This document shows, piece after piece, positions 48,514 to 53,804 of a DNA stretch of 64,000 nt (position 1 is its first letter; every line of letters starts with the position of its first letter). The notes beneath the pieces were generated by a model that made no database searches, was not told the DNA's origin, and saw only the letters and a program-made list of their open reading frames with translations. Both the position numbers and the translations under genes were made by a program. The DNA is from Amycolatopsis circi. GTDB taxonomy: Bacteria; Actinomycetota; Actinomycetes; Mycobacteriales; Pseudonocardiaceae. Location of the stretch: the NCBI RefSeq assembly GCF_003385235.1, contig NZ_PQIA01000014.1, positions 1 to 64,000 on the forward strand, in the 5' to 3' direction.

Positions 48514-48709
48514 GCCCGGCGGCATACCCTCGCGCCCAGGCGAAATCGCCGCCGCCGAAAACACCCCGGTCTCGGGATTCTTGGCCACCGCGGACAGCCG
48601 TCCTTCCGACCAACGGCTCCCCGACCGTCACGGCACGGCCCCACTCCTCCAGCGCCGCAATGACCTCCGCACCGATCCGCGACTCCACCATCACGCTGCC
48701 TGCCGCCAG
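48514..48709 (-). pseudogene. Degenerate copy of the gamma-glutamyltransferase 3' tail
   Basis: AAGSVMVESRIGAEVIAALE and VTVGEP, then after frameshifts GYAAGR, repeat the last 65 codons of the intact gene at 48731 (AAGSVTVESRIGAEVIAALE, VTVGEP, GYAAGR). The stop codon is mutated. It directly follows the intact gene's end in the same orientation. The remaining 48249-48513 stretch holds the lectin-enzyme leader and no gene I can support. Confidence 0.72.
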
Positions 48710-50574: not shown

Positions 50575-50589
50575 ATAGCGTATCGCTAT
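50575..50589. promoter_or_regulatory. LysR operator candidate
   Basis: ATAGCG-TAT-CGCTAT, perfect 6-bp arms, overlapping the LysR initiation codon in the 72-bp divergent region. Likely an autoregulatory site. Confidence 0.5.
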
Positions 50590-51487
50590 GGAACGCCGTC
50601 AGCTGGAGTACTTCGTCGCGATCGCCGAGCACGGCGGGTTCACGCACGCGGCGCGGGCTTTGCGGGTGGCGCAGCCGTCGTTGTCGCGGGCGATTTCGAA
50701 GCTGGAACAGGACCTGGGCGTCGAACTGTTCCACCGGGTCGGGCGTAACGCGGTGCTGTCGAACGCGGGCGAACTGCTGGCCGGACGCGCCCGTCTCGTG
50801 CTGCGCGACCTCGACGCCCTGCGCGCCGCCGCACGGCTGGCGGGCGACGGACCGGCCGGGCGGATCGACGTCGCGGCCACGTCGTCGTCCGCGCTGGAGC
50901 CGGTGCTCAGCATCATCGCCGAGATGCGCACGCGGTATCCGGGCGTTTTGGTGAGCACGTCGGCGGCGTTGTCGGCGGCCGAGGTGGTCGCGATGGTGGT
51001 GCAGGGCCGGTGCGAGGCCGGGGTGTGCGGGAGCGCCGAACGCCCGGTCGGGCCGGGGCTGGTCGCGCATCACCTGCGGGACGAGGAAGTGCTGCTGGTC
51101 GCCCCGCCCGGCACGGAAATCGGCTCGGGCGGGGTCGTGGAGCGGTCCGAACTCAGCGGCAGGCAGTTCGTCGTCACCACGTCGCCGACGGCCGTCCGCG
51201 GATTCTTCGACCGGCTCGCGGCGAGCGTGCCTGGCCTGTCGATCGCGGCCGAGGCAGGCGACCGGAGCGTCGTGCTGCCGATGGTGCTGCGCGGGATCGG
51301 CGCGAGCCTGATGCCGGACGGCTGGGCGGACCTGGCCCGCCGCGCCGGTGCCGAGGTGTTCCGGTTCTCGCCGCCGGAGACGCTCCCGCAGTGGTTGATA
51401 TATCGGTCGGGTCCGATTGCCGCGGCAACTCAGGCGTTCGTGGACATCACCCTCGCCACCGGCGGAACCGACAGCATCGGCGCGTAA
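50588..51487 (+). CDS. LysR-family transcriptional regulator
   Basis: A 299-aa regulator. The N-terminal winged HTH (LEYFVAIAEHGGFTHAARAL, VAQPSLSRAISKLEQDLGVE) is followed by a periplasmic-binding-fold effector domain (AAGRIDVAA-like GRIDVAATSSSALEPVLSII, VLPMVLRGIGASLMPDGWAD). It is divergent from gamma-glutamyltransferase, its likely target. The last 58 bp overlap, on the other strand, the end of the frameshifted lasso B2 gene. Confidence 0.9.
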   Translation: MERRQLEYFVAIAEHGGFTHAARALRVAQPSLSRAISKLEQDLGVELFHRVGRNAVLSNAGELLAGRARLVLRDLDALRAAARLAGDGPAGRIDVAATSSSALEPVLSIIAEMRTRYPGVLVSTSAALSAAEVVAMVVQGRCEAGVCGSAERPVGPGLVAHHLRDEEVLLVAPPGTEIGSGGVVERSELSGRQFVVTTSPTAVRGFFDRLAASVPGLSIAAEAGDRSVVLPMVLRGIGASLMPDGWADLARRAGAEVFRFSPPETLPQWLIYRSGPIAAATQAFVDITLATGGTDSIGA

Positions 51488-51866
51488 TGGCCGTCCGGAT
51501 ACGGCTCCCCGATCGCGCGACCGTCCGCCTCGATCCACGCATGCGCGGCGAACGGGCTCGTCCGCACGCCGGTGCACCAGGTCGGCCAGGAGCCCCTGAG
51601 CCGACACAGGAGCGCGGCGGCGATCGAGCGTTGGAGCAGCCTTGTCCGGCACAGCGGAGGCTGACGGATACGACGTCCGATCGGGCAGCGGATGCCTCAT
51701 CGGTGGTCGCTGCGCGGGCACCGCGGCGTGCGAATTCCAAGACTCGGCGCAGCTTCGCCGGACGCAGCCGGGCGAGCGGGCGGGCCAAAACTACGGCAAG
51801 CAGCGGCACCGGGCGGCGATGCAGCGGGAGGCGGGTGCGCGTGGCGAGCGCGACCGGGGCGGTCAT
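51430..51866 (-). pseudogene. Lasso peptide leader peptidase B2, frameshifted
   Basis: A transglutaminase-like peptidase that would cut a lasso precursor from its leader. VPLLAVVLARPLARLRPAKL, ARSDVVSVSLRCAGQGC reads in the first frame. A one-base loss near 51636-51643 then shifts to LQRSIAAALLCRLRGSWPTW, CTGVRTSPFAAHAWIEADGR, GEPYPDGHYAPM. Together these give the full 145-aa family length with the catalytic Cys (TWC), His (AHAW) and Asp (EADG). The start overlaps the stop of a B1 remnant (ATGA), as in intact lasso operons. Confidence 0.78.
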
Positions 51867-51916
51867 GCCGTCAGCAACCCGGCGGACCGCAGGTGGTCGA
51901 GCACTGCGGTCACGTC
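51863..51916 (-). pseudogene. C-terminal tail of a PqqD-like lasso B1 protein
   Basis: Only the last 17 codons survive (DVTAVLDHLRSAGLLTA and stop), which is the usual ending of PqqD-like leader-recognition proteins. The stop overlaps the B2 start. Upstream it runs directly into the asparagine synthetase fragment, marking a deletion joint near 51916. Confidence 0.62.
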
Positions 51917-52405
51917 CTTCCGCGTCGTCGTTGCCCGCCTCCGCCTCGAGCCCAGCGGACGGTTAGCAACTCCGGATTCTCCCGAGCGGCAAGGAAACAC
52001 AGCGACGTCGAATCCATGCCGCCGGACAGGTCAGCGGACCCGCGTCCAGAGTGGACCGCCTCGGCGAGCGCGGTCCGCGGGCAAGCGACTCGCGAGCGAC
52101 CGGCGGACGCCACCACGGCTTCACCCGCACTCGGCCGTCTGTCCACAACAGACAGACACTCGGCGGCACTGCGGAAACCTTGACGCACAACGGTCGTTCG
52201 TTCAACGGCGGCGGAAGTTGCAGCCCGCATGACACCCGCGCGGCGAGCACCCCACAAGAAACTCGGCGAGCAGATCTGCCCGATCAGCGGCGACCGGCAC
52301 TCCGTCGACCCGGCAGTGAAACACCCGCCGCAATCCGGTTGCCGTGCCTTGAATCCGCACCGCACCGTCCACAGTGGCCACCAGGTGAAAGAACCGGTCG
52401 GAGCG
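51917..52405 (-). pseudogene. Lasso-type asparagine synthetase (macrolactam cyclase) remnant
   Basis: A broken cyclase gene in three frames. FFHLVATVDGAVRIQGTATG and FHCRVDGVPVAADRADLLAE come from the N-terminal domain, CGLQLPPPLNERPLCVKVSA and LLWTDGRVRVKPWWRPP from the linker, and SADLSGGMDSTSLCFLAARE is the ATP-binding SGGxDS motif. The remaining two-thirds of the synthetase domain is missing and the start is lost at the boundary with the DUF1479 gene. No precursor peptide gene is visible. Confidence 0.75.
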
Positions 52406-52447
52406 CGGACCCGCCCCGCCCGCTGGCCCGAATGGACTAGACCACTG

Positions 52448-53719
52448 TCATCCGATGCCGAGCCCGCGCCGCCCGGTCTCGTTCAACTGCCCGGGAGCGA
52501 ATCGGTCCGGCCAGGTTCGCTCGTAATGCTCGGCCGGGAAGTCCGACGGACTGGACCCGGACTCGAACGCTTCGCGCACCGACCCCGCGTACGCCGCGTT
52601 CCGCGGGCACCACGGTGCGGCCGGGATGTACATGACGTTGCCCCAGCCCTGCTGGTTCTCCACCGGAGCGACGCTGTGGATCAGATCGCAGTGCCACCAC
52701 ACGGAATCGCCCGCCCGCACGTCCGGGATGCCGCTGGAAGCCCGCAGCAGCAACGAATGCCATTTCTCGCTGGCCGGGAACACCTGGTTCACCGTTACGC
52801 CGCACATGTCGTCCTCCGGGACGTCGGCCAGCAGCGGCCGCAGCATCAGGTAGCCCATCGCCTCCGGGATCGGCACCGTGTGCAGCACGCCCTGGTCGTG
52901 TTTCATGTCGGACAGCGCGGTCCAGCCCTGGAAGGTGCGGAACACCGAGCACATCGTCGAACCCTCGAACTGCGGACCGGCCGTGCGGTGCGCGGCGTCC
53001 CACGGGTCGTAGGACTCGACGGTGCCGTCGAACAGTTGCCGGAAAGCCCGCTGGTACGCCTCGGTCATCCAGAGGTCCAGGGTGCCCGGGTCGAGATGGG
53101 AGCCGAGACCGCCGGAATCCGCGCCCGGCGGGCGACGGCGGATGCGGTCCGGGTACAGCGAATCCCGGCCGGGATCGAACCACCGGACACCGTCGGACTC
53201 GGACTTCCACTGCGCGTTGAGGAACGCCTGCACGTGCGCCATCCGGTCGCTTTGCCGTGCTTCCATTTGCGCTGGTGACCAGTAGATCGGATAGATCTCC
53301 GGCCTCGAGCCGACGGTGCCGAAGAAGTCGTCGCCGGGGCCGCGGTAGTTCTCGAAGAACCGGTTGCCGTCGACGTAGTCGACGATCCCCGCATCCCACT
53401 CAAGCGCCTGCTCGCGCGGGAAGTGACCGCGCACCACGAGACAGCCGCGCCGCCCGAGCCGGGCGAGTTCTTCTTCGGAGACTCGGCCCGCCTCGATGTC
53501 GGCGTAGTCCAGCTCCGGCCAGATCGCTTCGCCGCGCGCTTTCGCCGCCTCGATCTCCTCGACCGCGGCGGTGACACGCGCCTCGACCACCGCGAACACC
53601 TCGTCCACGGTGCGCCCGGACGCCTCGATCCGCGCCCGCAGCGCGGCTTTGACCTCGCGAATCGCCGCCGGAAGGTCGTCCGGCGTCGTCTCCCAGTGCG
53701 GCAACGGGGGCAGCTGCAT
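52448..53719 (-). CDS. DUF1479 family (YbiU-like) Fe(II)/2-oxoglutarate-type dioxygenase
   Basis: A 423-aa soluble protein. LPAAIREVKAALRARIEASG and RRGCLVVRGHFPREQALEWD begin the domain; GLGSHLDPGTLDLWMTEAYQ provides the H-x-D metal pair and WWHCDLIHSVAPVENQQGWG the distal His. This is the DUF1479 pattern (E. coli YbiU), a cupin-fold family thought to hydroxylate small molecules; the substrate is unknown. GGAG lies about 7 nt before ATG 53719. It is divergent from a ROK regulator with two related operator-like palindromes between them. Confidence 0.84.
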   Translation of the reverse strand: MQLPPLPHWETTPDDLPAAIREVKAALRARIEASGRTVDEVFAVVEARVTAAVEEIEAAKARGEAIWPELDYADIEAGRVSEEELARLGRRGCLVVRGHFPREQALEWDAGIVDYVDGNRFFENYRGPGDDFFGTVGSRPEIYPIYWSPAQMEARQSDRMAHVQAFLNAQWKSESDGVRWFDPGRDSLYPDRIRRRPPGADSGGLGSHLDPGTLDLWMTEAYQRAFRQLFDGTVESYDPWDAAHRTAGPQFEGSTMCSVFRTFQGWTALSDMKHDQGVLHTVPIPEAMGYLMLRPLLADVPEDDMCGVTVNQVFPASEKWHSLLLRASSGIPDVRAGDSVWWHCDLIHSVAPVENQQGWGNVMYIPAAPWCPRNAAYAGSVREAFESGSSPSDFPAEHYERTWPDRFAPGQLNETGRRGLGIG

Positions 53720-53732
53720 AGCGCTCGCTCCA

Positions 53733-53804
53733 TTCAGGAAGGGCTCCTTACTGAATCGACGGTAAGGCGCCCGCACCGATTCAGGCAACACTCCTGACTA
53801 AATC
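53733..53804. promoter_or_regulatory. Pair of ROK-type operator palindromes
   Basis: TTCAGGAAGG-N3-CCTTACTGAA (53733-53755) and GATTCAGGCAA-N4-CCTGACTAAATC (53778-53804) share the half-site TTCAG/TTTAGT. They occupy the divergent promoter of the DUF1479 and ROK genes. Confidence 0.6.

Follow-up and report, generated by a model that had tools for sequence, protein, structure and literature searches.

Remains of a lasso-peptide operon between a LysR-family gene and a Gig2-like gene in Amycolatopsis circi

The minus strand at 51430-52391 of the window, the whole stretch of 64,000 nucleotides from Amycolatopsis circi that we analyzed, carries what is left of three lasso genes, encoding a cyclase, a PqqD-like B1 protein and a B2 peptidase, with the operon order kept. 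Judged by its sequence, the locus is a real, broken lasso-peptide operon, a pseudogene cluster of known kind. None of its reading frames is uninterrupted. The reading frame changes at least four times, deletions have left two joints, and the locus is predicted to make no product. It is flanked by a LysR-family regulator on the plus strand (50588-51487; PF00126, 2.2e-22; PF03466, 8.7e-27) and by an intact Gig2-like gene on the minus strand (52448-53791; PF07350, 4.8e-134), which a first-pass annotation of the letters alone had called DUF1479. Among the papers listed on lasso peptides and pseudogenes and on Amycolatopsis clusters, mostly titles and the first parts of abstracts, none gives an account of this locus. 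As far as those sources show, it is new as a locus and ordinary as a kind.

Remains of the B2, B1 and cyclase genes

The B2 gene is full length, but it is split over two frames. The C-terminal half, including the stop codon, lies at 51430-51636 on the minus strand and matches NF033537 (lasso_biosyn_B2) at 6.5e-21 (75.1 bits; cut-off 33), as well as PF13471 (1.4e-18). The N-terminal half, a minus-strand frame of 77 codons at 51636-51866, covers positions 4-73 of NF033537 (1.2e-5); its 25.7 bits are under the cut-off alone, and it adjoins the C-terminal half on the profile. Alignment to three intact B2 proteins places the halves end to end. Since the first half covers 51866-51636 and the second begins at 51636, with one base in common, the break is a net loss of one base. 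Identity to the three intact proteins is 53-65% in the N-terminal half, while the C-terminal half reaches 74.6% with the B2 of another Amycolatopsis operon (G063) and 87% with that of the chaxapeptin cluster. Recognizable B2 homology stops at 51455-51458. The last codons of the frame (about 51454-51433), which had been taken as B2-derived, are antisense LysR sequence instead.

No second B2 was found in this genome: PF13471 gives one match, and NF033537 only the two pieces described. A search of a plasmid collection returned three records, all annotated as lasso B2 and all from Streptomyces. Among solved structures, a thiamine-monophosphate kinase came up for the C-terminal half (0.081), a chance match only.

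The sequence ahead of B2 is the probable end of the B1 (PqqD-like RRE) gene, with some 17 codons and a stop left (51863-51922, minus strand). Its protein matches are weak when taken alone: 0.039 to PqqD, under the cut-off, and 42.9% over 21 residues to the G063 B1 (0.006). The tail is assigned to B1 because of its position, because its stop overlaps the B2 start as ATGA (51863-51866, minus strand; TCAT on the forward strand), and because DNA of the L081 locus matches it from B1 into B2 without a break (51917-51455, 69.7%).

The asparagine-synthetase-like cyclase is present as a homologous fragment only, and no intact cyclase is found at the lasso locus. A remnant with the SGGMDS motif occupies 51920-52250 on the minus strand and shifts frame twice, around 52101-52125 and around 51947. 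An N-terminal, glutaminase-like remnant follows in a third frame (52262-52391, minus strand), with DNA matches from 52391. The aligned pieces run from 52387 to 52262 (about residues 98-139), from 52250 to 52101 (about residues 149-198), and from 52125 to 51943 (SGGMDS); the DNA match extends past 51943, through a further change of frame, as far as about 51922. The remnant occupies three frames and changes frame three times or more. Identity of the three pieces to three reference lasso cyclases is 35-67%, and with three intact cyclases the N-terminal piece taken separately shows 66.7%, 59.5% and 56.1%. The SGGMDS piece matches NF033561 (1.3e-6) and PF00733 (9e-4), both under the cut-offs.

A deletion joint connects the cyclase to the B1 tail at 51917-51922. 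The cyclase DNA match stops at 51920-51925 in all 11 intact operons compared, and the L081 match picks up again at 51917, in the B1 tail, after skipping 1220 bases of its operon. About 1.2 kb of cyclase and B1 sequence was removed at this joint. A second joint zone lies on the Gig2 side (52392-52416). Here the cyclase match starts near 52391, and the flank in common with Amycolatopsis dendrobii starts at 52416, so that the precursor gene and about 95 codons from the start of the cyclase have been lost. A search of the whole window with three intact precursors gave a best value of 0.12, and not at the lasso site; the same three reach E <= 2.5e-5 in seven of seven control loci.

Most of the first-pass annotation stands. 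Its canonical order of processing-gene pieces on the minus strand is confirmed by family profiles, including a scan of 51400-52450 in three minus frames, and by alignments to intact references. Its B1 tail of 17 codons, ATGA overlap, one-base loss in B2, single joint for the loss of most of the cyclase and B1, and missing precursor agree with the results above. The joint had been placed at 51916 rather than 51917-51922. The SGGMDS fragment was correctly identified as cyclase, although its extent was underestimated, the remnant beginning near 52391 with at least three frame changes. That annotation had also missed the extra cyclase part with its frame changes, the way in which the B2 tail overlaps the 3' end of LysR, and the repeated loss in relatives.

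The LysR site in related Amycolatopsis genomes

The LysR gene has an orthologue (E <= 1e-80) in 16 of 80 Amycolatopsis genomes, the sample comprising this genome (G000) and 79 relatives. Eight of them have the surroundings of the site in common: A. circi, G071, G015 (A. dendrobii DR6-1), G048, G032, G045 (A. rubida DSM 44637), G035 and G017. The other eight (G009, G020, G046, G055, G059, G068, G010 and G058) have GGT next to LysR and no adjoining Gig2-like gene; in G009, LysR and a methyltransferase gene are adjacent.

Shorter B2 tails occur in four of the seven site-sharing relatives. Alignments to the window run beyond the LysR stop (51487) to 51591 in A. rubida, 51523 in G071, 51511 in G048 and 51492 in G032. 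They end at 51465 in G035, 51463 in G017 and 51459 in A. dendrobii, which have no tail. They resume at 52416-52447, except in A. rubida, where they do so mainly within and beyond ROK. The tail is recovered by tblastn above 28 bits in G071, G048 and A. rubida, where it is without about 10 internal residues, and not in G032, whose tail of only about 30 bases rests on the alignment and the LysR ending. Unrelated sequence at the site in relatives, or a lack of family-profile matches in the window, would have spoken against the first-pass reading; the window does have such matches, and four of the seven relatives carry a shortened piece of this B2.

No intact operon lies between LysR and the Gig2-like (DUF1479) gene in any of the 80 genomes, where the first-pass annotation had suggested looking for one. 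A scan of genome contigs gave at least 61 loci; among the matches listed, none is an intact operon at the LysR/Gig2 site, and one (A. rubida) has LysR/GGT neighbors. NF033537 has a match in 37 of the 80 genomes, over the cut-off in 36. Of the seven relatives with this site, three (G071, G015 and G048) carry such a match in another part of the genome, and G045, G032, G035 and G017 have none. An apparently broken B2 with an internal stop is seen at G055:C1:3152413-3152598 (partial NF033537 match, positions 22-90).

The surroundings of the site vary as well. The A. rubida locus (L046, 6549-10626) has lost the Gig2-like gene and most of ROK by deletion, and its glutaminase-A-like gene adjoining GGT matches in scattered pieces only. 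At 48536-48708 of the window, part of the 3' end of the gamma-glutamyltranspeptidase gene is repeated in tandem in a decayed form; 96 bases are 90% identical and 77 bases 84% identical, at a spacing of 222-223. The gap between the neighboring genes is about 145 bases in G071 and G032, compared with 482 in the window. Gig2-like genes are also present in genomes without this LysR/lasso site. Two of them (G003:C1:4591537-4592832 and G053:C1:7038202-7039500) are 79-80% identical, in genomes with no LysR orthologue at E <= 1e-80. The Gig2-ROK-trypsin block may have arrived together with the lasso operon, and the block next to the fossil may have come from genes like those of G003 and G053.

A probable single gain, repeated loss and the end of LysR

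The eight site-sharing species form a clade (support 100/100), within which A. circi and G071 group together (99/99). The remaining order is poorly resolved in the flank tree, and the tail-bearing species do not form one clade. Because the order is left open, any number of losses is a minimum. G071 lost its own copy after its split from the line of the window, so at least two losses were separate. All seven pairs of endpoints differ, which suggests more than two. One gain followed by repeated loss would be the simplest history.

We consider it very probable that a former lasso operon stood at the LysR/Gig2 site in the ancestor of the eight species, that it is now non-functional, and that it was lost further in relatives. 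Precursor, cyclase, B1 and B2 genes would once have stood between LysR and the Gig2-like gene, and we infer that this ancestral operon was complete and active. It would have been gained once, probably by horizontal transfer. In the line leading to this genome, the precursor, the start of the cyclase, most of its end and most of B1 would have been deleted, leaving frameshifted remains of the cyclase and B2; in the relatives, the same operon would have been eroded further, with other deletion endpoints. Selection presumably does not maintain the remains. The compared sequences directly show the homologies, the gene order, the joints, the changes of frame and the reduced remnants of the relatives. 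Several points count against this reading: the B1 and cyclase pieces fall under curated cut-offs when taken alone, single-base frame changes could partly be assembly errors, the G032 tail is very short, and the tail-bearing species are not a clade on the poorly resolved tree.

That none of the genomes searched has an intact operon here would also fit an ancestral empty site, into which fragments only, and never a whole operon, were inserted species by species. This is very improbable, however, as five species have the same LysR/B2 junction with graded tails, which fits one gain and later loss, and the three-gene pieces keep operon order and the B1-B2 overlap. It is less probable still that the C-terminal B2 frame (88 codons) still yields a small protein that has taken on another function, whether by itself or in antisense to LysR. 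This frame is open and well conserved, with residues of the catalytic region present, but the tails of relatives are short, that of A. rubida has its internal gap, and the partner genes are gone. Least probable of all is an operon that is intact in the organism and broken only by sequencing or assembly errors: the draft has 305 contigs and 3.2% contamination, one-base changes are a common error type in GC-rich sequence, and single-base frame changes could partly be such errors, but large deletions are less easily so explained, about 1.2 kb of cyclase and B1, the cyclase start and the precursor are absent while the flanks are normal, at least four frame changes fall within less than 1 kb next to open LysR and Gig2-like frames, and relatives are broken at the same site too.

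Part of the fossil now lies within another gene. LysR homology with species without the site stops at codon 290-292 in most of them, about 51460, and B2 homology ends at 51455-51458; thus LysR codons 292-299 (51461-51484) read the B2 tail from the opposite strand. LysR ends in GGTDSIGA in this genome. Four relatives have similar endings: GGTDSIGA again in G071, GGTDSIGAW in A. rubida, GGADRSGA in G048 and, in G032, GGTASIGASWPERP. The endings of the remaining species listed are different. Relatives with a tail retain at least the portion read by LysR. There is a slim chance that this last scrap has been kept in five species since antisense B2-derived DNA gives LysR its C-terminal end, even as the operon itself disappeared on several occasions. 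If selection does keep the overlap, it would be a small case of a new protein end arising from antisense sequence.

The site provides a picture of a small natural-product operon dying, with remnants from about 950 bases down to none at one shared position in an eight-species group. It offers a way of counting losses of a lasso operon, and it warns genome miners that short B2 matches may be fossils. Knowledge of lasso peptides themselves is unchanged by this locus.

Comparison with known lasso systems

Intact Streptomyces operons (L060-L063 and L067-L069) have the same three-gene order as the window, with identities of 64-80% for the B2 halves and 47-85% for the cyclase pieces. In intact L067, about 1.4 kb separates SGGMDS from B2, as against about 80 bases in the window. 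Other Amycolatopsis lasso operons (G063, G004, the second locus of G071, and A. dendrobii) have the same gene set, but they lie elsewhere in the genome and score below the Streptomyces loci overall. In 12 of the 14 intact operons scanned, a candidate precursor carries DTLG ahead of the core, and L081 and L080 gave none by this pattern. The stretch GEFSEDTLGFG is exact in seven of these precursors and identical to that of the published Lp3/chaxapeptin precursor. Precursors of chaxapeptin-like type are the usual kind in intact relatives at other sites.

The chaxapeptin cluster (Lp3), on the linear plasmid pSLE2 of Streptomyces leeuwenhoekii C34, shows the same order of precursor, cyclase, B1 and B2, and its annotated B1 and B2 likewise overlap by 4 bases. 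Its B2 has the highest identity seen to the C-terminal half in the window (87% over 60 residues), and the SGGMDS cyclase piece reaches 79%. The N-terminal half of B2 is only 56% identical, and the N-terminal cyclase piece 48%. These low values leave six other Streptomyces loci of chromosomal type slightly closer by bits summed over five pieces (L067, 371; L062, 367; L063, 366; L068, 366; L069, 361; L060, 359), compared with 355 for the chaxapeptin cluster. According to PMC6856326, Lp3 sits on pSLE2 and is potentially transferable by conjugation. The ancestral operon would have resembled chaxapeptin clusters, and from these comparisons the fossil operon likely made a chaxapeptin-like peptide and arrived by transfer. 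Unlike the fossil in the window, however, the chaxapeptin cluster is intact, plasmid-borne and found in Streptomyces.
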